Below are positions 4,897 to 25,690 of a stretch of 64,000 nt of DNA, piece by piece. The stretch is from Streptomyces sp. CB03234 (GTDB taxonomy: Bacteria; Actinomycetota; Actinomycetes; Streptomycetales; Streptomycetaceae). Position 1 is the first letter of the stretch. Each line of letters starts with the position of its first letter. The stretch covers positions 248,001 through 312,000 of the forward strand of contig NZ_LIYH01000005.1 of the NCBI RefSeq assembly GCF_001905885.1, written 5' to 3'. Position numbers and translations under genes: made by a program. Under the pieces are notes generated by a model, which worked only from the letters and a program-made list of their open reading frames with translations, did no database searches and was not told the origin of the DNA.

Positions 4897-5035
4897 TGGT
4901 TTAATTACCCCGCCGTCAGCGGAGCGGGCAACCTCCGGCCGGCCGCGTCCCACAGGACGCCGCGCACCCAGACAACAGACGACGGCCAGCGCACAAGGGC
5001 AACAAGGCGCTGGCCGTCAGCGTTCTCTCACCAGA
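4897..5035 (+). promoter_or_regulatory. structured leader element, copy 4
   Basis: Repeats the order of copy 1: TGGTTTAATTA at 4897-4907 (identical 11-mer to 346-356), GGGCAAC bracketed by GGAG/CCTCC around 4920-4937, a perfect 11-bp stem at 4981-4991/5008-5018 (GACGGCCAGCG) and CTCTCACCAGA at 5025-5035, continuing as AGAAAG, which resembles a ribosome binding site, 12 nt before ATG 5048. Confidence 0.6.
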
Positions 5036-6027: not shown

Positions 6028-6204
6028 GTGCCCGACGCCCGCTGTCCGCGCTGCGGCGGCCCGCTCGGTGAACGGCCCGCACGTTCCCGGCTGACCACCG
6101 ACCGCGAGGTCTTCATCTGCACCGCGTGCGGTACGGACGAAGCCGTGCGTGAAGCCCGAGGTCAGGCGCCGGTGCCGTTCGGCGAGTGGCCCCTGAATAC
6201 ATAG
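6028..6204 (+). CDS. small zinc-ribbon protein (58 aa)
   Basis: 58-residue frame from GTG 6028, three nt after the previous stop, ending TAG 6202-6204. It contains CPRCGG (residues 6-11) and ICTACGTDEA (residues 30-39), two CxxC knuckles 22 residues apart, the classic zinc-ribbon spacing. Codon bias agrees with its neighbours. Probably coupled to the upstream DNA-binding protein; function unknown. It ends just before the bidirectional terminator at 6233. Confidence 0.65.
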   Translation: MPDARCPRCGGPLGERPARSRLTTDREVFICTACGTDEAVREARGQAPVPFGEWPLNT

Positions 6205-6232
6205 CCGCCGGCCGAGAAGCCGCATGGCCAGC

Positions 6233-6277
6233 ATGACGAAGGTCCCCGCTCCGATCCGGAGCGGGGACCTTCGTCAT
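6233..6277. terminator. bidirectional terminator hairpin
   Basis: Perfect 21-bp inverted repeat (6233-6253 and 6257-6277, 3-nt loop ATC) between two converging genes. The right arm includes the stop codon of the leftward gene (6274-6276). Its length and perfection make it one of the strongest hairpins in the window. Confidence 0.8.
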
Positions 6278-6552
6278 GTCGCCTCGCTGCGCAGCTTCCG
6301 CAGCCACTCACTCAGCAGCTCGGCGTTGGCCCTGTCCATCAGCATGATCATCGCGGTGCCGCGTAGTGCGGAGGCGACGGTGCGGAGGTCCTCATCGCTG
6401 TAGTCGGATGCGACGGCGAGCAGGTCCGCGTCGCTGTGGTCGCTCATGCGCAGGCCCAGATCGTTCATCCGCTCGACCAGCATGCGGAGCGCGCCTGCGG
6501 TATCGACAGCCTGGCGGGTGAGGTCAGCAAGATCGTCGTTCCGGTTCGCCAT
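6274..6552 (-). CDS. hypothetical helical protein (92 aa)
   Basis: Leftward gene of 92 residues beginning MANRNDDLADL; ATG 6552 has GGAG about 5 nt upstream and is preferred to an in-frame start at 6609. Entirely helical and acidic, with a repeated pattern SDADLLAVASDYSDEDLRTVASAL, and no recognised family. It converges on the rightward gene cluster at the terminator and diverges from the relaxase gene, so its promoter lies among the palindromes of 6600-6740. Confidence 0.6.
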   Translation of the reverse strand: MANRNDDLADLTRQAVDTAGALRMLVERMNDLGLRMSDHSDADLLAVASDYSDEDLRTVASALRGTAMIMLMDRANAELLSEWLRKLRSEAT

Positions 6553-6614
6553 GTCTCCAGGATGGCCTGGGCACCCCGGCCCGTGCCGTCTCCAGAGGTA
6601 ACAGTCCAACAGGA

Positions 6615-6637
6615 GATCAGGCTCCAGGAGCCTGATC
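6615..6637. repeat. perfect palindrome upstream of relaxase gene
   Basis: Arms of 11 bp (GATCAGGCTCC at 6615-6625, its complement at 6627-6637) around a single A. Located between the divergent small gene and the relaxase gene, it is either an operator for both or part of oriT. Confidence 0.6.
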
Positions 6638-6712
6638 CTCAGGAGCGACGAGGCCGATCCGAGTGCCCGAGGCTTCCCTCGTTGATCATGATCTTGAATC
6701 TAGAGGACCAAG

Positions 6713-6735
6713 GTATCGTCACTCCGTGACGATAC
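6713..6735. other. candidate oriT inverted repeat
   Basis: Arms of 10 bp (GTATCGTCAC at 6713-6722, its complement at 6726-6735), loop TCC, 42 bp before the relaxase start and within a locally AT-richer stretch (GATCATGATCTTGAATCTAGA). MobF relaxases bind a short inverted repeat beside their nick site and oriT is often next to the relaxase gene, so this is the best oriT candidate. The assignment is inferred; no nick site can be read. Confidence 0.4.
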
Positions 6736-6777
6736 AATCGGCCAAGATGACCGAATCTGATCGGGTGAGAGCGGGGG

Positions 6778-9700
6778 GTGAGCGGGCCGGTGGGATGGGT
6801 GACCATGATCGGCCCCTCCGACGAGCAGGTTGAGTACCGCCTTACCGGCGGTCACGGCTGCGGGAAGTCCACCACGGTCGACGCGGCCCTCCTCGTCGCC
6901 GCCATCGAGGCCAAGGCCGAAGCGGCGGGCGCACCCGTCGCATCCCTGCTCGGCTCCCGTGAAGCCAAGCGCGCCTTCTTCCGCGCCCGCGGACTGATCC
7001 GCAGCAAGGGTGCCGCGCGGTTCACCGGGTTTGACGCCGTTGAAGTCGCCTCCGCAGCCGGACTCGACGCCCGCGACCTGTACGGCGAACAGGTCCTTCC
7101 CCGACCGGCCGCCGACGGACAGGTGGACTACCACCTGGACGCCAGCGAACGCCCCTTGGTGTGGATCGGCAACGGCCTCAACGAGTTCGACATCACCCCT
7201 GGCAGCGTCCTTGCCCCGGAGCACTTCCAGGCGGCCCGCCGCCTTATGCATGGCGAGGACCCTCGGACCGGGCAGACCCTCGTGGAGCCCAAGCTCGCCA
7301 TCGCGCCGGCCGCGAAGCTCCCGGCCGCTCCGCTGGCTCGTGCGATCCGCCGCGCCGCTGCCGAACGCAGCGTGAACCCCGTGACCCTGCTGGACTCCAA
7401 GAGGAAGCAGGACGCCTTCCGTCGGATGGAGAGCCAGCTCAAGCGATTCGGTGAATCGCACCGGGTGCCGGCCTCCACCGTGCTCAAGCTCGCCGACGCC
7501 GTCGGCATCGACGCCGTCGCCCTCTACGGCGAAGACGTGCTGGGGAAGGCCGTGGCCGCCGAGGCGGGCGGCCACCTGGACGCCCGCGCACTCCTGCGCT
7601 CCGTCGAGGCCCGCGCCACTGAGACCGGGCAGCAGCCCGCCGACCTGTTCACCGCAGCTTCCATGAAGCGCCGGTACGTCCAGACGGCGGGCGAGGGCGA
7701 ACGCCGCCTTCGAGACCTCCCCATGGCCGTACGCGAAGCCGTCGCCATGGCCAAGGCGGCAGGGCTCGCGCCCGAGGACGTGTGGGACGCGGAGGAGATC
7801 AAGGCCGCTCTCCTCGAAGGGCGAGTGCAGGTCGGGAACTTCGGCGCCGACGTCACCTTGGATCTCGCAAAGTCGAAGTCCGCGTTCCTCGCCTACGCGC
7901 CGGAGGAGATCGCCGCCCAGGTGGAGGGCATCTACACCTCCGCCGGCCGCGAGTCCATCAGTGCCCTGGAGCGGTGGACCGCGTACGGCATGCGCGGTCG
8001 CCACGGTGACGGTGACGAGGCGGAGACCGTGGGGACGAGCGGGTTCTCCGGCTGGATGATGGTGCACCGCGCCGCCCGGCCCGTGGACGGCGCGCCGTAC
8101 GGCGACCCTCATTTCCACCTGCACTTCACCCTGGCCAACATGGTCAAGGGGATTGACGGCAAGTGGTCCACCATGGCCAGCGGGGGCCGCGACCTCCACC
8201 GGCACGCCCGGGCCACCCAGTCCCTCATGAACGCCCGTATCCGGAGGGAGCTGACCGACAAGTTCGGCATCAGCTTCCGCCGCGAGGAGCGAACCGGCGC
8301 GTGGGAGATCGCGGCGATCCCCGAGGCCACGATCCGCCTCTTCAGCAAGCGTGACAACCAGGTCCGGGACCTGCTGACGAAGCTGGGCATCGACTACGAC
8401 AGCGCCACCACCCGCGAGCGCACAGCGGCTTCCACCGCGTCCAAAGCCGCGAAGAACGGAGAAGCCGCAGGAGTCGCGGACGACGTCCTGCGCGAGTACT
8501 GGCAGGCCGAAGGCCGCGCCGCCGGTGATGAGCCCGAGGCCATCGCGGCCAGCGCGATGCAGCAGGACAGCCCGAAGCAGAACCCGGGCTTGGACGAGCT
8601 GTGTGCCACGATCTTCGACCCGAAGACCGGCCTGACCAGCCACTCCAAGGACTTCACCCACGCCGCCGCCATCGCCGCCGTCCTGGATGCCCTCCCGTAC
8701 GGAGTCGCGGACGCCGAGGAGGCCGAACGCCTCACCGACTCTGTCCTCCGGCACGCGGGGTACGCGGTCAAGCTCAACCCGAAGGGTGCACAGCACTTCG
8801 CGCATGCGGACCGGTACACGACGGCGGACGTCGTTGCCGCGGAAACGCTCATCGTCTCGGAGGCGACAAGCCGTCTCGGCGCGCAGGCCGCCGTCGTCAG
8901 CCGCGACACGGTCGAGATGACCCTGTCCACCGTCGAAGCCCAGCACGGCGGCACCTTCAAGTTCTCCGACGAACAGCGCGCCGTCCTCGACCGGCTGCTC
9001 ACCGCCGGACACGGGATCGACGCCGTGGTGGGCATCGCCGGGGCGGGCAAGACCACCATCATGGACACCGCCCGGCAGGCGTGGGAGGCCCACGGACTCG
9101 TCGTTGCCGGCGCCAGCACGGCCGCGGTCGCCGCCGCGAATCTGAAGGCCGAAGCGGGGATCACCTCGCGCACCCTCGCGTCCTGGCTCACCGGCATCCG
9201 TACGGGCGGCGCCGGCCTCAACGGCGTTGACGTCCTGGTCGTGGACGAGGCGGCGATGTGCGATGACCGCGACATCGCCGAACTCCTCACCCACGCGGCG
9301 AAGACTGGAACGAAGGTTGTCGGCATCGGCGACCCGAAGCAGTTGCACTCGCCGGGCATCGGCGGCAGCTTCGCTGCCGTCCACCACCTTGTTGGCGGCC
9401 TCACCCTCAGCCAAAACTTCCGGCAGAAGGACATGGTCGAGCGCCGGGCACTGGAGCTGTGGCGCGACGACAACCGAGTGGAAGCGCTCCGAACCTTCGC
9501 CGGAACAGGGCGCGTGCACGCCCTCGCGGACAAGGACGCCACCCTCGCCGCGATGCTCACCGTCTGGGCGGACAAGCGCGCCGCGCACACCGACGACCAC
9601 ACCGCCGTGCAGCAACTCCTCATGCTCGCCGCCACCAACGAGATCGTGGAGGAGCTGAATCTCGGTGCGCGCGCTCTGCGCAAGGCGAGCGGCAATCTCA

Positions 9701-17690: not shown

Positions 17691-18926
17691 TTACGCCGAG
17701 GGCCAGGAGAGCGAGATCCGGGTGTGCACCTTGTCGATGACCCGGTCGGCCGGGATCTGCTCATCGGGGGTGCTGGCCGGATAGACCCGGATGACCGGGC
17801 TGGGGCCGCCGCGCCGGTTGGCCTCCCAGTCGCGGAGCACGTCAGCGATCTTGTCGGCGAACTGCTCCGCGTGCGGGCCGAGGGCGTGCACGCCGTACTC
17901 CAGGTGCTTGTTGTCCTCGGTGCGGCGGGTGACGAGGTAGGCGAAGGTGTCGTCCTCGACGGCCGCGAGGGCGAACCGCTTGTTCACGGGGGCGACCAGG
18001 CCCGTGTCCGAGTTCTCATCGACGGCCATCGTGCAGAAGCCCGGCAGACTGATCGCCATCGCCATCTGGAGGGTGTCGATGAGTTCCTGGACGCGGACGG
18101 TGACACCGGTCCACAGTTCGTGGCGCGGGAACGTGACGGCGTTGTCGAGTCGGTGCGGGTCGGCCGGCAGGCCGTCATCGAACTTCAGCCCGATCTCCGG
18201 GGTGCCGTTGACGAGGAGGAGTTCTTCCCGGTGGGCGGTCGAGCCCTGCATCGGGACGAAGCCGCAGATACGCGCCGACTCGCTCTCCAGGTAGGTGCCG
18301 TGCTCGCCCGTGACCTGGGTGAAAGCGACCGACCGGGTCAGGCCGCGCATCCGCAGCGGGACGACGAGCCGACCACCCTGCTTGAGCTGCGCGGTCCAGG
18401 CCGGGGAGATGTCCCAAGCCCCGGCGGTCACCATCACGACGTCGACCTCGCCGAGGTCCGGAATCGGCTCGGCGGCATCGGCGGTGACGACGCGCACCCT
18501 GTCGTAGCCGTGCTCGTCCAGGAGCCGGCGCGCGCGGTCGGTGACGACGGGGTCGATGTCCACGGTGACGACTTCACCGCCCTCACCGACGAGCTCGGCG
18601 AGGTAGGCCGCATTCAGCCCGCCCGAGCCGATCTCCAGGACCCGCATCCCGGGCTTCACCTGAGCCTGCTCCAGCATCATGGCCTGGATCTGCGGCGCGG
18701 AGACGGAGCTGAGCTGCACACCGTGCTCGTCCGTCTTGGTGATCACGGCGGCGTACGTGTCGTACGCCTTGTCCAGCGGGGTGTCGGGAGTGAACTCGTG
18801 CCGGGGCACCTTGCGCATCACGGCTTCGACCTCCGGGGAGGAGATGTTGCCGTCCGCGCACAGCTCGTCCACCACCTTGTTCCGCAGGCGGGTCGCCTCG
18901 TCGGGATCGACGGTCGTGTTCGTCAT
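17691..18926 (-). CDS. methyltransferase, FxLD system (PIMT-like, lanthipeptide tailoring)
   Basis: 411 residues. The N-terminal 220 residues are a protein-L-isoaspartate O-methyltransferase-like fold: PRHEFTP (about 42), VSAPQIQAMMLEQ, the SAM-binding loop RVLEIGSGGLNAAYLAEL (about 93-110), VVTVDIDP and DVVMVTAGAWDI. A further 190 residues are specific to the FxLD family (AMAISLPGFCTMAVDENSD, YLVTRR). Relatives in lanthipeptide clusters methylate an Asp of the modified precursor, which then forms aspartimide or isoaspartate. It is the first gene of the operon, 51 nt before the precursor; ATG 18926 follows GAAGGAAG. SAM-binding residues look intact. Confidence 0.9.
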   Translation of the reverse strand: MTNTTVDPDEATRLRNKVVDELCADGNISSPEVEAVMRKVPRHEFTPDTPLDKAYDTYAAVITKTDEHGVQLSSVSAPQIQAMMLEQAQVKPGMRVLEIGSGGLNAAYLAELVGEGGEVVTVDIDPVVTDRARRLLDEHGYDRVRVVTADAAEPIPDLGEVDVVMVTAGAWDISPAWTAQLKQGGRLVVPLRMRGLTRSVAFTQVTGEHGTYLESESARICGFVPMQGSTAHREELLLVNGTPEIGLKFDDGLPADPHRLDNAVTFPRHELWTGVTVRVQELIDTLQMAMAISLPGFCTMAVDENSDTGLVAPVNKRFALAAVEDDTFAYLVTRRTEDNKHLEYGVHALGPHAEQFADKIADVLRDWEANRRGGPSPVIRVYPASTPDEQIPADRVIDKVHTRISLSWPSA

Positions 18927-19082
18927 GGACTTCCTTCGGTCGTTCGTGTTCGGGGGAGGTAGGTCGGCACCGCGTGCCGGTGGGCCGGGAGGTTATCGGC
19001 GAACGTCCTCCGTTCTTGCCGGACCGCCGAAGGTTGGCGGTTTCGTGCCGGACGGCGCGCGAGGGCTCGGCGCCGGTGGTGA

Positions 19083-19127
19083 GCCGCCCGGCGGCCCTGT
19101 CCGTATCACTCAGGACCACCGGGCGGC
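19083..19127 (-). terminator. hairpin downstream of the 19131 gene
   Basis: Nine-bp arms (GCCGCCCGG at 19083-19091, its complement at 19119-19127) with a long loop, immediately 3' of the leftward stop at 19131. The remaining 18927-19082 should hold the promoter of the lanthipeptide operon. A small inverted repeat (CGGCAC/GTGCCG, about 18965-18980) is visible there but no clear -10/-35. Confidence 0.45.
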
Positions 19128-19130
19128 CGT

Positions 19131-19778
19131 CTAGGCGGCAGGCACAAGATCGTCCAGTTTGACGACCTCGTAGTCCCGCAGTTCGCGTACGAGCTGAGAG
19201 GCGAGGAACCAACCGATCTGGGGGTGGCTGTAAGGGAGGGGCCTGTCTGTGCCCGAGAGGGCTTGGATGCCGTTGGGACCGTACTGGTACGCCGTGCCGA
19301 TCACGCCGTAGAGCGGAAATCGCCTGGCGAGGAGGGCTACGTGCCCCTTGCGCCTGAGCCGGGGGCACCGGCTCGCCGCCATCCGGGCGTGCGCGAGACA
19401 GACCGGCGGCTGTGCCGTTTTCACGGGACCGGTGTAGTCGAGGTCATCGGCTGTCTCCAGGAAGAGGATGCCGTCGCTGCGCTTCAACTGGACCGTGCAC
19501 ACCTGGCACCGGAGCAGAGCCATTGTCGAGCGCTGGCGAAGGGGATGGACCAGCCGCCACCTCGGGGTTCCGGTGGGCATTCCGTCGTTACCGAGCGACA
19601 TTGAGTACCGGGCCCACAGGACGCCTCGCAGGTCCCGGTCGGGCGGTTCCTCGTCCACGTACGCCAGCCGTGGGCGGCGATCTGGACCAAGGCGTACACG
19701 CAGGTTGAGGAGGGATTCCGCTTCCTCGCCCTCGCGGGCGGTGATATACGGGACGATCAGGTCGGCTGCAGTGGTCAT
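19131..19778 (-). CDS. hypothetical protein (215 aa) downstream of DUF5999
   Basis: 215 residues from ATG 19778, with GGAGG eight nt upstream; a longer frame to 20420 was rejected because it enters the transposon. It contains a CxxC (LRCQVCTVQLKRSDGILF, about 105-122) and a third Cys in PPVCLAHARM, so a metal site is possible. The rest is beta-rich (LNLRVRLGPDRRPRLAYV). No recognised family. Its start overlaps the stop of the interrupted DUF5999 gene in ATGA, showing it was translationally coupled to that gene before the transposon split the operon; it may now be poorly expressed. Confidence 0.65.
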   Translation of the reverse strand: MTTAADLIVPYITAREGEEAESLLNLRVRLGPDRRPRLAYVDEEPPDRDLRGVLWARYSMSLGNDGMPTGTPRWRLVHPLRQRSTMALLRCQVCTVQLKRSDGILFLETADDLDYTGPVKTAQPPVCLAHARMAASRCPRLRRKGHVALLARRFPLYGVIGTAYQYGPNGIQALSGTDRPLPYSHPQIGWFLASQLVRELRDYEVVKLDDLVPAA

Positions 19779-19858
19779 GCCGCGCCTCCTACGGGGGCCG
19801 CCAGGGACCGGCGCGGCGCGACGATCGTGCCGTTGGGCAGCAGTTCGCCGGTGTCCTC
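19775..19858 (-). pseudogene. DUF5999 gene, 3' half (interrupted by Tn554-like element)
   Basis: Reads EDTGELLPNGTIVAPRRSL and on to VGGAA, the typical C-terminal half of DUF5999 proteins. The 5' half lies at 23879-24001, beyond the transposon, and joining the halves at the shared CCTCGA core restores ...LLFE-DTGELLPNG... in frame. In its present setting the frame is open upstream to ATG 19909 inside the transposon end (a 44-aa product) or ATG 19870, so a hybrid fragment could still be translated. Confidence 0.85.
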
Positions 19859-19930
19859 GACTATGTCCATCAGCCTTGCGGGTGTCTTTGATGTCCAACT
19901 CGCTGCCATGAAGGGGCCTTTCGGTGCTAC

Positions 19931-21094
19931 ATGGACGGGTTCTGTTCGCCTGTCCATGTCGTTCTGGGGTGTGGTGTGTCGTTCGCAGTGCAGAGGCTGC
20001 GGTTGTCCGAGGACGGTCCGGTCTCGTACACCGTGGTGGGGGACGACGGCTTGCCCGTCGATGACGTGGAGGACTTCCTCGCGTACCTGACGGCGAGGGG
20101 TGCATCGCCGAACACGGTCCAGGGCTACGCCTACGACCTGCGCGACTTCTTCGTCTGGCTGGGTCAGGTGGGCTTGGACTTCCGGCGTGTGCGGCTGGAG
20201 GTGGTCGCCCAGTTCTTCGATTGGCTGCGCCGTCCGAAGCCTGCCCGAGCGCCGGAGGTTTTCGTGCTGCCGGGTGTCGGCCAGGCGCTGGAGAACACCA
20301 CGCTGCAGCGGAAGCGGGCCGCGCTCGCGTCGTTCTACCGGTTCCACGCCAGGCGGGATGAGAGCGTGCCCGCGCTGCTGGGAAACCTGCTGGCCAGGCA
20401 GCCGACAGGCTCCTACACACCGATGCTGGCGCACACCCAGCGAGGGGGCGAGGTCGAGTACAGCCCGATCCGCATCCACGCCCACCGCAAGCCGCCCCGG
20501 ACGCTGACGGATGACGAGGTCCGGCGGCTGATGGGCGCCTGCAACAGGCGCCGGGACCGGTTCCTGATCGCGCTCCTGGACGAGGCGGGGCTGCGGATCA
20601 GCGAGGCACTGGGCCTGCGGCACGCTGACTTGAACCTCCGCAAGGGCGAGGTGCACGTCGTTCCGCGCGAGAACAACGCGAACCATGCCCGGGTCAAGGG
20701 CATGAAGGGCCGGATCATCCCGGTGCGTCCGGAGCTGTTCGACCGCTACGCCGTCTACATGGAGAGCGAGTACGGGACGCTGGACTGCGACTTCGTGTTC
20801 GCCAACCTCTTCCGCGCGCCGATTGGCTCCCCGATGACCCGGGCGAACGTCAACGAGTTGGTCGAGCGGCTGCAGAAGCGGACCGGGATCGCGCACTTCT
20901 CGCCGCATGTCTGCCGGCACACCTACGCCACACGACTGCTGCGGGCAGAGGTGCCGATCGAGGTCGTGGCCGAACTCCTTGGTCACGCCAGCCCGCAGAC
21001 CACCGCCGAGATCTACAGCCATCTCGATGTCGAGGATCATCGCCGGGTACTCCTGTCGGCCGGGATCATCAAGGACAGGGCACCGACCCGGTGA
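19931..21094 (+). CDS. tnpA: tyrosine recombinase, TnpA of Tn554-like element
   Basis: 387 residues (372 if GTG 19976 is used; no ribosome binding site decides). N-terminal SAM-like core-binding domain (VDDVEDFLAYLTARGASPNTVQGYAYDL, about 42-70). Catalytic domain with Arg in EAGLRISEAL (about 220), HxxR in SPHVCRHTYATRL (about 325), LGHASPQTTAEIYSHL with the His and nucleophile Tyr (about 350-361). All catalytic residues are present. It overlaps tnpB by 4 nt. Length fits Tn554 TnpA (about 360). Confidence 0.92.
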   Translation: MDGFCSPVHVVLGCGVSFAVQRLRLSEDGPVSYTVVGDDGLPVDDVEDFLAYLTARGASPNTVQGYAYDLRDFFVWLGQVGLDFRRVRLEVVAQFFDWLRRPKPARAPEVFVLPGVGQALENTTLQRKRAALASFYRFHARRDESVPALLGNLLARQPTGSYTPMLAHTQRGGEVEYSPIRIHAHRKPPRTLTDDEVRRLMGACNRRRDRFLIALLDEAGLRISEALGLRHADLNLRKGEVHVVPRENNANHARVKGMKGRIIPVRPELFDRYAVYMESEYGTLDCDFVFANLFRAPIGSPMTRANVNELVERLQKRTGIAHFSPHVCRHTYATRLLRAEVPIEVVAELLGHASPQTTAEIYSHLDVEDHRRVLLSAGIIKDRAPTR

Positions 21095-23379
21095 ACACGC
21101 CCCGCGCGAGAGCAGGCTCCGACGGCCTGCTGGCCAGGCTGATGGAGACGGTGCGCCCGGAGTTCCGGGCCGAGGTGTTCTGTCCGCCGCGGGACAGCCC
21201 GGTGTTCTTCCCCGGCGAGTGCCGCATTCCGGCCTGCCCGACGACGCTGACCATGGGCCGGCTGAAGCTGTGCCGCACCCACCACCACCGCTGGGCGGCG
21301 GCGGGACGACCAGCCGATCTGGACGGGTGGTTCGCTCAGGAGGATGCGCGACTGCGCGAACGACGCCAGGTCTCGGCCTGCCGGGTCTCCGGGTGCAATC
21401 GGGCCCGAGCCGCCCACGGTCTGTGTCACCGCCACGCCTCGCGGTGGAACCACGCCGGACGCCCACCCCTCGAATCCTGGCTGGGACGGACCCTCTATCA
21501 ACCTCCGCGCAAACCCTGGTCCGCCGAGCGGACCTGCGACTTCCCCGACTGCCCGCGCTGGACCGACAGCACCGACGCTCCGCTGTGTCACACCCACCAC
21601 AACCGGTGGCGCAAGCACGGCCGACCGACCCTCGACACCTGGTACGACGACCTCGCTCACCGCGGAGACCCGAAGATCCGCCTGGACCAGCTGACCCCCG
21701 CCCTGCGCCTGGAGTTCCAGTTCGGTCTGCAACACCGGCTCGACGAAGGACTGCGCTTCACCCCCGCCCGCGACGTCCGCCGCGCGGTCACCTGGGCCTG
21801 CGAGGCACCCATCACCAGCCTCCTCGACTGGGACGAGAGCACCTGGCGCGACCACGTCGCCCCGCTCGGACCCGGCGGGAAACGCCACGGCCACAACGTG
21901 GTGGCCTTCCGCTTCATCGCGGACACCCGCTTCGCCCTGAAGCACCTGCTCATCGCCGATGATCCATGGGCTGACCAGTACCCGCGCGACGTCTGGGACC
22001 TGCGGCACTTCGCCCTGGCCGAAGGAGAGACGCGCTACCTCCGCTTCGGCCCCATACCCCAGCCCTGGCTGCGCGAGCTGGTCAAACGATGGTGCCGCTG
22101 GCGCATCAGTACGAACATCAGCGTCAACACCGTCGCGCAGAACCTGCGCTCCCTGACCCATCTCTCCGGGCATCTGCCACCGCACGCCGCGCCGGCCGAC
22201 CTGACGCGCGCCAGGATCGAGACGTGGCTCGCCGCCCTGGCCGTCGACTACCCGGACGTGTTCACCCGCCGGGCCACCGTTAACTCGCTGGGCCGCTTCG
22301 TCGCCGACGCCCGCGCCCACGACTGGCAGCCGGTCCTGCCGCGCGACGCGATCATCTACAACGACGCTCCGCCACCGCCGCCGGCCAAGCCCCGGTGGAT
22401 CTCCGAACACCTGATGCGGCAGATGGAGAACCCCGAGAACCTGGCGTTGATCTCCACCGACGACCTCCGCCTCATGGTCCCCTTGCTGATCTCCTGCGGC
22501 CTGCGGATGAAGGACGCCCGGCGCCTGCGGTTCGACTGCGTCACCCACGACGACACCGGCGCCCCCTACCTGACCTGGGTCAACCACAAGATCCACGGCC
22601 GCATCGCGTTCTTCCCCATCAGCCAGGCCCTGGCCGACGAGATCGCCGCACAACAAAAGCGCGTCCAAGCCCGCTTCCCTGCCGGAAGCCGCTTCCTGTT
22701 CCCCGGCTGGATGGCCAACCTCAACGGCAGCAAGGCCGTCTCGGACACCTGGTGCCGCGAACAGATGGAGACCTGGCTGGAGCGCATCCGCCTCATCGAC
22801 GAGCACGGCCGCCCAGCTCGCGTGACCTTCCACCAGTTCCGCCACACGCTGGGCACCCGGCTGATCAACGCCAACGTCCCGCAGCACATCGTCCAGCAAC
22901 TGCTCGACCACATGTCGCCGCAGATGACGGCCATCTACGCCCGGCTGCACCAGAAGACCCTGCGCGAGCACTGGGAGAAATCCCTCAAGATCAACGCCGA
23001 AGGCGAAGCCGTCGCCCTGCCCGCGGACCACCCGCTTGCCGATGCGACCTGGATGCGGCTGTCCCTGGTCCGCGCCAAGGTCAGTCTCCCCAACGGCTAC
23101 TGCGGAGCCCCGATCCAGACGGACTGCGAGTACGCGAACCCTTGCCTGGACTGCCGCTTCTTCATCACCACCGGCGACTTCCTCGACCAGCACCGACGCC
23201 AGCGCGAAGAGACCCGCAAGCTCATCGGCGACGCCGAAAAAGCCGGACTGTCGCGCATCGTCGAGAAGAACACCCGCACGCTCGGCAAGCTCGACACCAT
23301 CATCGACGCCCTGGAACAGGCCGGCCCGCAGCAGATCGTGGCCGGCGGGAAGGTGACCGATCTCGATGCCACCGGCTGA
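21091..23379 (+). CDS. tnpB: tyrosine recombinase, TnpB of Tn554-like element
   Basis: 762 residues, starting GTG 21091 in a GTGA overlap with tnpA. The N-terminal region has repeated Cys/His modules (CRIPACP...CRTHHHRW, CRVSGCN...CHRHASRW, CDFPDCP...CHTHHNRW at about 45-185), probable zinc knuckles not found in ordinary integrases. The catalytic domain has Arg in SCGLRMKDARRL (about 469), HxxR in FHQFRHTLGTRL (about 580) and LLDHMSPQMTAIYARL (about 602-617). A further Cys cluster CEYANPCLDCRFF lies near 680. It is longer than Tn554 TnpB (about 630) because of the N-terminal knuckles. Confidence 0.9.
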   Translation: MNTPRARAGSDGLLARLMETVRPEFRAEVFCPPRDSPVFFPGECRIPACPTTLTMGRLKLCRTHHHRWAAAGRPADLDGWFAQEDARLRERRQVSACRVSGCNRARAAHGLCHRHASRWNHAGRPPLESWLGRTLYQPPRKPWSAERTCDFPDCPRWTDSTDAPLCHTHHNRWRKHGRPTLDTWYDDLAHRGDPKIRLDQLTPALRLEFQFGLQHRLDEGLRFTPARDVRRAVTWACEAPITSLLDWDESTWRDHVAPLGPGGKRHGHNVVAFRFIADTRFALKHLLIADDPWADQYPRDVWDLRHFALAEGETRYLRFGPIPQPWLRELVKRWCRWRISTNISVNTVAQNLRSLTHLSGHLPPHAAPADLTRARIETWLAALAVDYPDVFTRRATVNSLGRFVADARAHDWQPVLPRDAIIYNDAPPPPPAKPRWISEHLMRQMENPENLALISTDDLRLMVPLLISCGLRMKDARRLRFDCVTHDDTGAPYLTWVNHKIHGRIAFFPISQALADEIAAQQKRVQARFPAGSRFLFPGWMANLNGSKAVSDTWCREQMETWLERIRLIDEHGRPARVTFHQFRHTLGTRLINANVPQHIVQQLLDHMSPQMTAIYARLHQKTLREHWEKSLKINAEGEAVALPADHPLADATWMRLSLVRAKVSLPNGYCGAPIQTDCEYANPCLDCRFFITTGDFLDQHRRQREETRKLIGDAEKAGLSRIVEKNTRTLGKLDTIIDALEQAGPQQIVAGGKVTDLDATG

Positions 23380-23782
23380 CAACGCCCGCTTCCTCGTCGA
23401 AGCCTCGAAGACACGCAGCCGGCAGGCACGCGAGCGCGCCGAAGAGGCCATCAAGACGGCAGCCCGGCGCAGCGAACGGCCCACCGTCGTCGGCATCGCG
23501 AACGCGGCCGGCGTCTCCAGGTCCTGGCTATACACGCAGACCGACCTCATCACCGCGATCAACCAGCTCCAGCAGCGAGCCCCGGCACCCCACCGCAACA
23601 CTCGGCACGCTGCCAGTGATGCCTCCCTGCAACGCAGGCTGGAGACCGCGCTCGAACGCAACCGGCAACTCCGCGACCAGGTCGCCGACCTCACCCGAAA
23701 ACTGGAGAACGCCCACGGCGAGATCCGCCGTCTCCGCACCCTGGCCCAGCCACCCGCGGCCACCGTCCTTGGCCCCCGCTGA
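23366..23782 (+). CDS. tnpC: TnpC-like accessory protein (DUF6262-like)
   Basis: 138 residues overlapping the tnpB end by 14 nt. It has an HTH-like segment (VGIANAAGVSRSWLYTQTDL, about 40-58) and a coiled-coil C-terminus (LQRRLETALERNRQLRDQVA). Tn554 TnpC affects orientation and efficiency of transposition. This third protein lacks R-H-R-Y residues, so the set is Tn554-like rather than a recombinase-in-trio element. Confidence 0.82.
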   Translation: MPPADNARFLVEASKTRSRQARERAEEAIKTAARRSERPTVVGIANAAGVSRSWLYTQTDLITAINQLQQRAPAPHRNTRHAASDASLQRRLETALERNRQLRDQVADLTRKLENAHGEIRRLRTLAQPPAATVLGPR

Positions 23783-23878
23783 GCCCACAGTCCGACCGCT
23801 GCCACTGCCCGACGAAGACATGTCCACCAGGCAAAGTCCCTGCTCAGCGGCACTATCAGCGCCAGAGATCGACATAAC

Positions 23879-24001
23879 CTCGAAGAGCAGCACCTGGTTG
23901 CACAACAGGCTCCAGCCCTGTTCCGGGTGGTACGCGATGGGCCGCGCGGCATCCCTGTCAGGAGCCTCAGCCGTGGGGCACGGCGGGGTGTGCGCGCACA
24001 T
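23879..24001 (-). pseudogene. DUF5999 gene, 5' half (interrupted by Tn554-like element)
   Basis: ATG 24001 starts MCAHTPPCPTAEAPDRDAAR, then HPEQGWSLLCNQVLLFE, the first 41 residues of a DUF5999 protein, including its two early Cys and the SLLCN Cys. Translation then runs into the transposon end (VMSISGADS...). The matching 3' half is at 19775-19858. DUF5999 proteins are small, Streptomyces-specific and of unknown function. Confidence 0.88.
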
Positions 24002-24051
24002 GGTGCTCGTCCTCTCAGGTGCGGAGCGGGAAGTCAGGCCCTCTTCGGCCT

Positions 24052-24510
24052 CTACGGGGCCGTGGGGGACGGTTCGGAGATGGCCGAAGAGGGAGTCGGT
24101 AGGTGTTGCCGTACGAACTCGGCGATGGCGGCCTCGCTGTATCCGTAGAACCGGCCGAAGACCGCGTCGTCCTCCCACCACTCGGGAGCGGGCTCGCCCC
24201 ACTCGACCGTGTGACAGGTGTCCCGGTACGGCGACCACCGGACGCGGAGGTCCGGGAACCCGGGCCGGTCCGCGAGGAGGCCGCGCGTCGCGATCGCCAG
24301 TGACAGCAGCTCGAAGGACATGTAACCGCCGCGGCGAGGGCCGCCGACCGGTACGGCGAGCAGGGGCGCCCGGAAAACTCGCACGGCAACAGCGCAATCG
24401 AGAACTGCTGGCTCGGCGAGGCGGTCACGGAAGTATTCGAAGTCGTACGCCTCCTCGGCCGGGCGAAGCGAGACGGTGATGGCGCGCGCCGGCCTCATAG
24501 CGGTGCTCAT
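24052..24510 (-). CDS. DUF6302 family protein
   Basis: 152 residues from ATG 24510, in an ATGA overlap with the upstream gene. Family landmarks as I recall them: AYDFEYFRDRLAEPAVLD, LLAVPVGGPRRGGYMSF, RVRWSPYRDTCHTVEWGE and FYGYSEAAIAEFV. Soluble, mixed alpha/beta; biochemical role unknown. DUF6302 genes usually sit in Streptomyces operons with a GHKL ATP-binding protein and an XRE regulator, as here. Confidence 0.8.
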   Translation of the reverse strand: MSTAMRPARAITVSLRPAEEAYDFEYFRDRLAEPAVLDCAVAVRVFRAPLLAVPVGGPRRGGYMSFELLSLAIATRGLLADRPGFPDLRVRWSPYRDTCHTVEWGEPAPEWWEDDAVFGRFYGYSEAAIAEFVRQHLPTPSSAISEPSPTAP

Positions 24511-25028
24511 CACTCGATCAGCCCCTTCACGATGCCGACTTCGTCCAGGCGCTGGGCGAGTTGCAGGGTGACCCGCCCGAGCCTGCGTAGGTGCCCGAGG
24601 GCCTGCCATGGGTCGCCGGGCAGCTCCTCGGAACGCAGCACGCGGGCCTGTTCGATCAGGGCCGCGATGTCCGGGTGCTTCTTGTCCGCCTCGTCGCGCA
24701 GACCTCGGTGCACGAGCTGCATGAGGGCACCGCGGAACCGTTGGGCGAGTTCGTCGGCGTCGTCGTACTCGGGCGGCGCCACGGCCCGCTTGCGTCCGGT
24801 TGACCCGGCGGCATGGTGGCTGACCTCGCCGTTGAGGAGCGCGTCCACATCTTCGAACACGGCGCTCCAGTCCACCGGCTCCCACTCGCGTACGGCGCTC
24901 AGGTACCGCTCAATGGCCGCCCTGTCGAGCGGTGCCGTCCAAGGATGCGTGGGGACGGAGGGGTCCTTGACTCGGATCGGAATCCGCTCGGCCCGCTCGC
25001 TTTGGTGCTGTACCGCGGTGCTCGTCAT
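24510..25028 (-). CDS. hypothetical protein (172 aa)
   Basis: 172 residues from ATG 25028 (ATGA overlap with the upstream gene; an in-frame start at 25058 is less likely). Mostly helical, with AERYLS-like and WQALGHLRRLGRVTLQLAQRL segments and a basic SGTRKRAV-like stretch in the middle. No family recognised. It forms a tightly coupled unit with the ATP-binding protein and DUF6302 and presumably works with them. Confidence 0.6.
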   Translation of the reverse strand: MTSTAVQHQSERAERIPIRVKDPSVPTHPWTAPLDRAAIERYLSAVREWEPVDWSAVFEDVDALLNGEVSHHAAGSTGRKRAVAPPEYDDADELAQRFRGALMQLVHRGLRDEADKKHPDIAALIEQARVLRSEELPGDPWQALGHLRRLGRVTLQLAQRLDEVGIVKGLIE

Positions 25029-25690
25029 CGGCTCGCCGCCAAACTCAGGTCGCACCATGTCGTGGCTCCGTCGTCATCGACACCCCAGGCCCCTCGTTTG
25101 CTGTGTGCGATCGCTGTGACGAGGGCCAGGCCGCGACCGTGCTCGTCTTGATCGCCGGGGTGCTGCACGGTCGGACGACGTCCGGAGACGCCGTCGTGCA
25201 CGCGGATACGGAGGAGGTCGTCTTCGAGATCGAGGGTGAGGCGAACGCGGCGGCCACCGCTGTGGAGGATGGCGTTGGTGACCAGCTCCGAGACGACCAG
25301 GGTCGCTTCCTCAGCGACGCAGTCCAGACCGTACGAGCGAAGTCGCTCCCGGGTCACGCGCCTCATGGCACGGACCCGGAGTTCGTCTTCACGTGGGGGG
25401 ACTTCGCCCGGCGCGTGCTCGGTGATGGGAAAGTCCTCCCTCACCAGGCAGCCGTCGCGAAGTACGGTCGGGCGCTGCGGCGCCGGGGCCGTCACCGCTC
25501 CGTTCCGATCTGCGATGTCCGGTCGTGCCGGGCGTCCGGATCGTCGATCGAGGAGAAGGCTCCCGTCCGGCGCCGCTGCCCCGGGACGCGCCGGAGCAGT
25601 CCGGCCAGGGCAGGCAGAGGGGTGACCGAGGCGTCGGCCAGGTTGCGGCGGCGGTGGCGGTCTCCGGGAGTCCGTGTGGTCATCGGGCAT
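25025..25690 (-). CDS. ATP-binding protein, GHKL/anti-sigma-type (HATPase_c_2)
   Basis: 221 residues from ATG 25690. The first 100 are Pro/Arg-rich and disordered. The C-terminal 130 form a GHKL ATPase domain with N-box VVSELVTNAILHSGG, G1-like RVHDGVSG and G2-like DEHGRGLALVTAIA. Streptomyces has many such RsbW-like proteins; those paired with XRE and DUF-type partners are thought to act as anti-sigma or signalling kinases, but their partners are rarely known. The N-terminal extension is long for this family. Confidence 0.8.
   Translation of the reverse strand: MPDDHTDSRRPPPPPQPGRRLGHPSACPGRTAPARPGAAAPDGSLLLDRRSGRPARPDIADRNGAVTAPAPQRPTVLRDGCLVREDFPITEHAPGEVPPREDELRVRAMRRVTRERLRSYGLDCVAEEATLVVSELVTNAILHSGGRRVRLTLDLEDDLLRIRVHDGVSGRRPTVQHPGDQDEHGRGLALVTAIAHSKRGAWGVDDDGATTWCDLSLAASR

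Follow-up and report, generated by a model that had tools for sequence, protein, structure and literature searches.

The 64,000-nucleotide stretch of Streptomyces sp. CB03234 DNA analysed here (the window) contains a transposon inserted into a DUF5999 gene. It very probably represents a Streptomyces branch of the Tn554 family, whose address is a conserved stretch of DUF5999 genes (...F-[E/D]-D-x-G-x-L-L-P...) and which enters this stretch by TnpA/TnpB recombination of a circle joint with six base pairs of the target, without target duplication. The genes, ends, core and target of the element, its empty sites, the unequal cores and the variable cargo were observed directly. The branch thereby gains a precisely bounded target, and complete plasmids provide natural sites with and without the element, which makes the strand polarity and circular form of a little-studied transposon type testable in harmless soil bacteria. 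DUF5999, a small gene of unknown function, also stands out as one that is disrupted repeatedly. Loci and genomes are cited below by L and G numbers.

The element and the gene it splits

The split DUF5999 gene runs on the minus strand from 24001 to 19775, and the element lies in its interior. The features of the region are as follows (window positions):

19131..19778, minus strand: gene downstream of DUF5999, its start overlapping the DUF5999 stop (ATGA, 19775-19778)
19775..19854, minus strand: DUF5999 gene, C-terminal part, with the stop TGA at 19777-19775; the joined product matches PF19462
19855..19860, unstranded: left 6-bp core CCTCGA, on the tnpA side, in the same place in relatives
19862..19871, plus strand: left terminal repeat TATGTCCATC, separated from the core by one base and variable at two positions in 11 aligned copies
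19890..19897, plus strand: left sub-terminal motif GATGTCCA, putatively functional, conserved in 11 aligned copies except for the T (C in L013 and L014)
19931..21094, plus strand: tnpA, tyrosine recombinase of up to 387 aa (PF00589, 8.9e-36, and PF02899)
21091..23379, plus strand: tnpB, large tyrosine recombinase of 762 aa (PF00589, 3.1e-17)
23366..23782, plus strand: tnpC, 138 aa, DUF6262 (PF19776, 6.5e-12)
23817..23825, plus strand: right sub-terminal motif GACATGTCC, putatively functional, invariant in 11 of 11 aligned copies
23867..23876, minus strand: right terminal repeat, GATCGACATA on the plus strand and TATGTCGATC on the minus strand, separated from the core by one base and without variation in 11 of 11 aligned copies
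23878..23883, unstranded: right 6-bp core CCTCGA, read in the sequence
23884..24001, minus strand: DUF5999 gene, N-terminal part, with the start ATG at 24001

The span 19775-24001 given in the preliminary description is precisely the split gene, from stop codon to start codon. When 19861-23883 is deleted and one CCTCGA is kept, MCAHTPP...LLFE is brought in frame with DTGELLPNG..., and the joined 67-aa product matches PF19462 (DUF5999) with E 6.9e-32 and 109.7 bits (cut-off 27.5), as expected from the earlier proposal that excision restores a DUF5999 protein. In a search of its own genome, the C-terminal half (19775..19854) was 90% identical to the joined protein, and one further, intact DUF5999 gene was found with 70% identity.

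The element is 4,023 bp long with one core counted (19861-23883) and spans 19855-23883 with both cores included. The ends named in the preliminary description are upheld by relatives and by empty sites, and the imperfect terminal inverted repeats, one base from each core, hold across the 11 aligned copies. Inside the split gene, tnpA, tnpB and tnpC form three overlapping genes on the plus strand; tnpA and tnpB overlap by four bases, and tnpC is the sole gene after tnpB. The true start of tnpA is perhaps a few codons later, as similarity to the Staphylococcus TnpA begins at residue 18. Catalytic-type motifs can be read both in TnpA (GLRISEA / HVCRHT...GHAS...IYSHL) and in TnpB (GLRMKDA / HQFRHT...DHMS...IYARL); the two proteins carry the catalytic residues of tyrosine recombinases, and activity is predicted. 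The G+C content of the element (68.3%) and of its flanks (69.4%) is alike. The genome contains a single full copy of tnpB and, in addition, two weak matches, one of them inside tnpA of the same element. The weak TnpB-like match elsewhere in the genome (29%, E 1.3e-10) lies at C3:7649-8302 (L002). An Rfam scan of window positions 18500-25500 gave no match.

Since the start of the downstream gene overlaps the DUF5999 stop, the insertion may affect that gene as well. Another neighbour (17691-18926, minus strand) encodes a 'methyltransferase, FxLD system' (TIGR04364, E 7.5e-175), and DUF6302 and DUF6415 genes lie near the split gene; judging by such neighbours, the DUF5999 gene may be part of a peptide natural-product locus.

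Empty and filled sites

CCTCGA is present 30 times on one strand of the window and 46 times on the other (76 in total), so common that the 6-mer by itself proves nothing; moreover, many host genomes are drafts. A split gene with two 6-bp repeats might in principle be a product of chance or of an assembly join, with no discrete element involved. However, such an element distinguishes two complete plasmids whose Streptomyces hosts were isolated at one place in Denmark: NZ_CP108499.1 has a whole DUF5999 gene and NZ_CP130723.1 the same gene with a 4,755-bp copy, and with the element taken out the two align over 11,134 nt, showing a single mismatch and no gap. The one-contig genome G231 carries the element, whereas its joined flanks match four empty loci (L190, L192, L193 and L194) with 97.4-98.1% identity over about 1,880 nt. 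Together with the many separate insertion sites, this leaves chance or misassembly practically no probability, and the empty sites, seen both in aligned flanks and in the exact plasmid pair, prove that the element is real.

The window locus was found in 12 of 392 genomes at E 1e-40: ten were empty and two filled, namely the genome itself and G231. The empty-site test of the preliminary description, carried out here by alignment, thus found uninterrupted homologues matching the joined sequence in 10 of the 12 genomes with the locus. The joined flanks align across the junction to L188 (G084) with 80.4% identity over 3,025 nt and, in shorter stretches of 68-81%, to L189, L190 and L192-L198. L194, one of the ten empty loci, gave a continuous alignment, yet the motif search called no intact DUF5999 there. 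Site 1 of S. indicus, joined in the same way, matches the empty L188 with 97.6% identity over 3,005 nt and no gap, and for the joined flanks of L012 the identity to intact loci is 91.5% (3,011 nt) and 88.6% (2,014 nt).

The element lies at the orthologous locus in the window strain, G231 and S. indicus, as a single ancestral insertion inherited vertically would have left it. Such a history is very unlikely, since the relatives of G231 and of S. indicus mentioned above, 97.4-98.1% and 97.6% identical, are empty and the element tree separates the copies. Its clade 1 contains the window element, L007, the plasmid copy, G231 and L015, clade 2 contains S. indicus, L008, L012 and L016, and clade 3 contains L013 and L014; G231 is thus placed with L015 and the plasmid copy, and S. 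indicus falls among copies from other sites. The elements of G231 and S. indicus occupy orthologous loci but belong to different clades, and close relatives have no element there; this locus was therefore hit more than once.

The preliminary description had also called the insertion recent, as both halves of the gene are undamaged. The joined protein is identical to those of S. indicus, G231, L188, L190, L195 and L198 at 47-49 of 59 positions, close to the range among the relatives themselves (S. indicus and L188 agree with others of that set at 48-57 of 59, a little above the joined protein); there is thus no sign of heavy decay. Recency itself is another matter: among the uninterrupted empty orthologues found, the best has a DNA identity of only about 80%, and the undamaged halves point no more than weakly to a recent insertion of the window copy. 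For G231 and S. indicus site 1, a recent insertion relative to their 97-98% identical empty relatives is supported by the alignments, and it is most strongly supported for the plasmid copy in NZ_CP130723.

Target rule and core sequences

A contig scan yielded 27 loci, ten of them close (82-95% TnpB), and plasmid and genome searches added more. The close relatives occupy the same spot of the DUF5999 family on chromosomes and plasmids of other Streptomyces. Sixteen insertions were readable: the window, L007, L008, S. indicus sites 1 and 2, L012, L013, L014, L015, L016, L064, L065, G231, G421, G186 and G063. The 16 exclude copies without a readable junction, namely G612 (L141, L153), the NZ_CP119146 fragment, G705, G419 and G427 (partial, 67-69%); in G612, neither the end patterns nor the DUF5999 profile gave a match. 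The contig pairs of S. indicus were assigned by synteny (site 1) and by exclusion (site 2). A count of three copies in this species (L009-L011) was rejected: the contigs overlap the repeat, and there are only two insertions.

Fifteen of the 16 insertions are in DUF5999 genes, and wherever both ends are present the cut falls at the same codon pair, F-[E/D], in agreement with the target rule proposed beforehand. Both junctions were seen in 12 of the 15 and one only in L065, G186 and G063; in the last, eleven DUF5999 residues (GLLCNGVLLFE) beside the right end were read from the translation, with no profile score. The exception is L015 of S. aureocirculatus (1669 and about 5771), whose left end lies in non-DUF5999 DNA adjoining CCCCGA; this is either an off-target insertion or a rearrangement. 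Its tnpC is cut, and the break is directly followed by CCCCGA again. The rule is established for the close branch only, as 23 more distant loci (L017-L033, L066 and L070-L074; about 38-73% TnpB by best segment), several with short flanks, gave no DUF5999 match at E 0.01. A junction pattern with two mismatches was too loose, matching 352 of 392 genomes; among the matches listed, only the zero-mismatch pair G186 and G098 was used. Viral contigs contained no relative of the element by tblastn, and phage records gave no match to a DUF5999 protein.

The cores of each copy, left/right in window orientation, are as follows:

CCTCGA/CCTCGA: window, L007, L064, G231, G421
CGTCGA/CGTCGA: L008, S. indicus site 2
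CGTCGA/CCTCGA: S. indicus site 1, L012, L016
CCTCGA/CGTCGA: L013
CCTCGA/CTTCAA: L014
right core only: CGTCAA in L065, CTTCGA in G063
left core only: CGTCGA in G186, CCCCGA in L015

The core described earlier is confirmed in its length of six bases and its place, but not as a fixed CCTCGA (CGTCGA, CTTCAA, CGTCAA and CTTCGA also occur). Likewise, the search suggested there, for the same three genes flanked by CCTCGA in other DUF5999 genes, found copies, but often with other cores. Identical 6-mers, as in the window, L007, L008, L064, G231, G421 and S. indicus site 2, are what an ordinary insertion by another transposase class with a 6-bp target-site duplication would leave. The left and right cores of one copy can differ, however, as they do in S. 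indicus site 1, L012, L013, L014 and L016, and so there is no target duplication; in addition, family scans of the three genes gave tyrosine recombinases and DUF6262 only. An ordinary duplicating insertion is accordingly extremely improbable.

For the preferred Tn554-type recombination, the circular form, the roles of the three proteins and the strand order are taken from the Tn554 family. By this analogy, the two recombinases TnpA and TnpB would probably attach to the terminal repeats (TATGYCSATC), which lie one base away from the cores, and TnpC would assist them; the ends would close around the 6-bp core, giving a circle that reads right end - 6 bp - left end. The circle joint would then recombine with the six base pairs of an intact DUF5999 gene, leaving the new copy flanked by one target core and one core from the previous site, with no target duplication. 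Published passages on the Tn554 family and SEs describe such carry-over of a 6- or 7-bp core; they put the core of the target on the left side and that of the donor on the right (PMC10214605, PMC12486829).

In the window copy the two cores are equal, so the target's own core is not distinguishable, and empty orthologues of other copies have to be compared. For L012 and L016 the native core is the left one, as their empty orthologues L157 and L158 carry CGTCGA. Four of the six full-length plasmid matches to the L014 site other than its own were fetched, and three of these empty orthologues carry CCTCGA (L201, L202 and L204; CGTCGA in L203), so that its native core is likewise on the left; in 28 genomes searched for this site, only its own matched. 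These two loci fit a target core on the tnpA side and overturn the assumption of a right core that is native in every case. S. indicus site 1 contradicts the published order: CCTCGA is present in L188 and in eight of nine orthologues read by motif, hence its native core is on the right. L065 has lost its left end, and its right CGTCAA is the native sequence in a 98% match, L205; it may keep the native core opposite to the published rule, and a donor with the same core would look identical. The locus nearest to L013 has CCTCAA, which is neither of its own cores.

If the left core were built into the element and the target supplied the right core alone, it would be clear why left cores follow the three clades (CCTCGA, CGTCGA and CCTCGA, respectively, except for CCCCGA in L015) and why S. 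indicus site 1 and L065 have native sequence on the right; the native cores on the left in L012/L016 and L014 make this unlikely. Gene conversion within S. indicus, whose two copies have 14 bp in common beyond the left core, could also account for the reversed cores at site 1. Within Tn554-type recombination, it is also conceivable, though rather doubtful, that the target core may end on either side, integration being not strictly one-stranded, both strands exchangeable and a mismatched core resolved either way. Unequal core pairs would then be a travel record whose direction is readable only with empty sites. The six-base tag can partly record where a copy came from.

Cargo, relatives and distribution

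While the ends are conserved, the cargo varies (HAD hydrolase, YceI or none). The right end GATCGACATAA and the right sub-terminal motif are common to all 11 aligned copies, and the cargo site is between tnpC and the right end. It is occupied by a HAD-family hydrolase gene in L007, S. indicus, L014, L064 and G231, by a YceI-like gene on the opposite strand in L012 and L016, and by a gene for a 140-aa protein with no Pfam match in L013; the Pfam run covered the L007, L012 and L013 products. In the window element and L008, the plus strand has no further gene of at least 100 aa. G421 (L152), which belongs to another genus of the family, carries a 1,122-bp derivative (about 6087-7214, minus strand) that has kept both ends and lacks most of tnpA and all of tnpB and tnpC, the tnpA start being fused to a HAD hydrolase. 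Judging by its ends, this derivative could be movable in trans. A search for termini at nine distant loci (L017-L023, L025 and L027) gave no convincing end pair. In L021 (Saccharopolyspora soli), CTGCACATAA-TCGTCG-TTATGTGGATC was noted downstream of tnpC, near 4995-5022; it looks like a right end, core and left end adjacent to each other, the arrangement that a tandem or a circle joint would show.

The branch is rare: TnpB was found at E 1e-100 or better in 9 of 295 genomes of the genus, four of which, the window genome included, belong to the close branch by identity. All three proteins are similar to those of a staphylococcal set on an S. aureus plasmid (L207), which gene order and annotation suggest to be of the Tn554 type: TnpA with 32% identity (E 2e-60), TnpB with 29% over 469 positions (E 3e-58) and TnpC with 35% over 63 aa (E 3e-11). 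The relationship to Tn554 named in the preliminary description is well founded in these matches. In L207, the third gene is also DUF6262, a JAB-domain gene lies beside tnpA, and TnpB is shorter (637 versus 762 aa). Tn554 itself targets radC. Tn554, Tn558 and their kin in Staphylococcus and Enterococcus share with the present branch the tnpA-tnpB-tnpC order on one strand, site-specific insertion with a 6-bp footprint, no target duplication and cores that may differ, and imperfect terminal inverted repeats, whereas the target here is DUF5999 instead of radC and the cargo, in the copies examined, is a HAD hydrolase, YceI or none instead of resistance genes. The published passages on Tn554 describe the same target specificity, 6-bp footprint and imperfect terminal repeats (PMC10214605).

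Actinobacterial Tn554-related transposons are already a defined class, described in Streptomyces, Rhodococcus, Mycobacterium and others, with one long and one normal-sized tyrosine recombinase and often a TnpC-like third gene (PMC3414803). The present branch is like this class in its recombinase pair and TnpC-like gene; the passages of that source give no target gene, ends or core, and what is added here is the target gene, the exact ends and the cargo variation. Tn552-II of Staphylococcus, as described in passages of PMC12486829, likewise has tnpABC, a target core on the left and the core of the previous site at the right end, but differs in its 7-bp core, other target gene and blaZ cargo, and in its circular form, which was detected there and is predicted here. 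By their description, SEs also resemble the window element in having two tyrosine recombinases, one of them large, and a 6-bp fingerprint carried to the right; their fourth gene, tfp, is absent here. Unlike RIT elements with their three tyrosine recombinases, the window element has DUF6262 as the third protein, and tnpC matched no recombinase family in the family scan. A literature search found no title or abstract naming DUF5999 as a target of Tn554-type elements; most subscription journals were outside this search.

DUF5999 was found by profile in 60 of 61 genomes of the genus, and one protein matched 380 of 392 genomes at E 1e-18, so the site could be usable as a natural landing point for integration tools. 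The core CCTCGA (TCGAGG in the coding strand) is present in 39 of 43 intact rows, which were ranked by profile score and count at least two genes twice (L004/L081 and L110/L111). In the L012 subfamily of 30 loci, all 27 readable by motif have CGTCGA. Full-length DUF5999 genes persist under 10 of 12 handles with an element or remnant; the 12 are 10 distinct genomes, as G280/G399 and G098/G395 gave the same hits. Each of these 10 handles has an intact MCQHQ-type DUF5999, and the halves beside elements are of other types. A DUF5999 protein also matches 145 plasmid records, 140 of them from Streptomyces, and five (L199 and L201-L204) of the seven intact plasmid loci inspected (L199 and L201-L206) have a gene for a WhiB-family regulator nearby.
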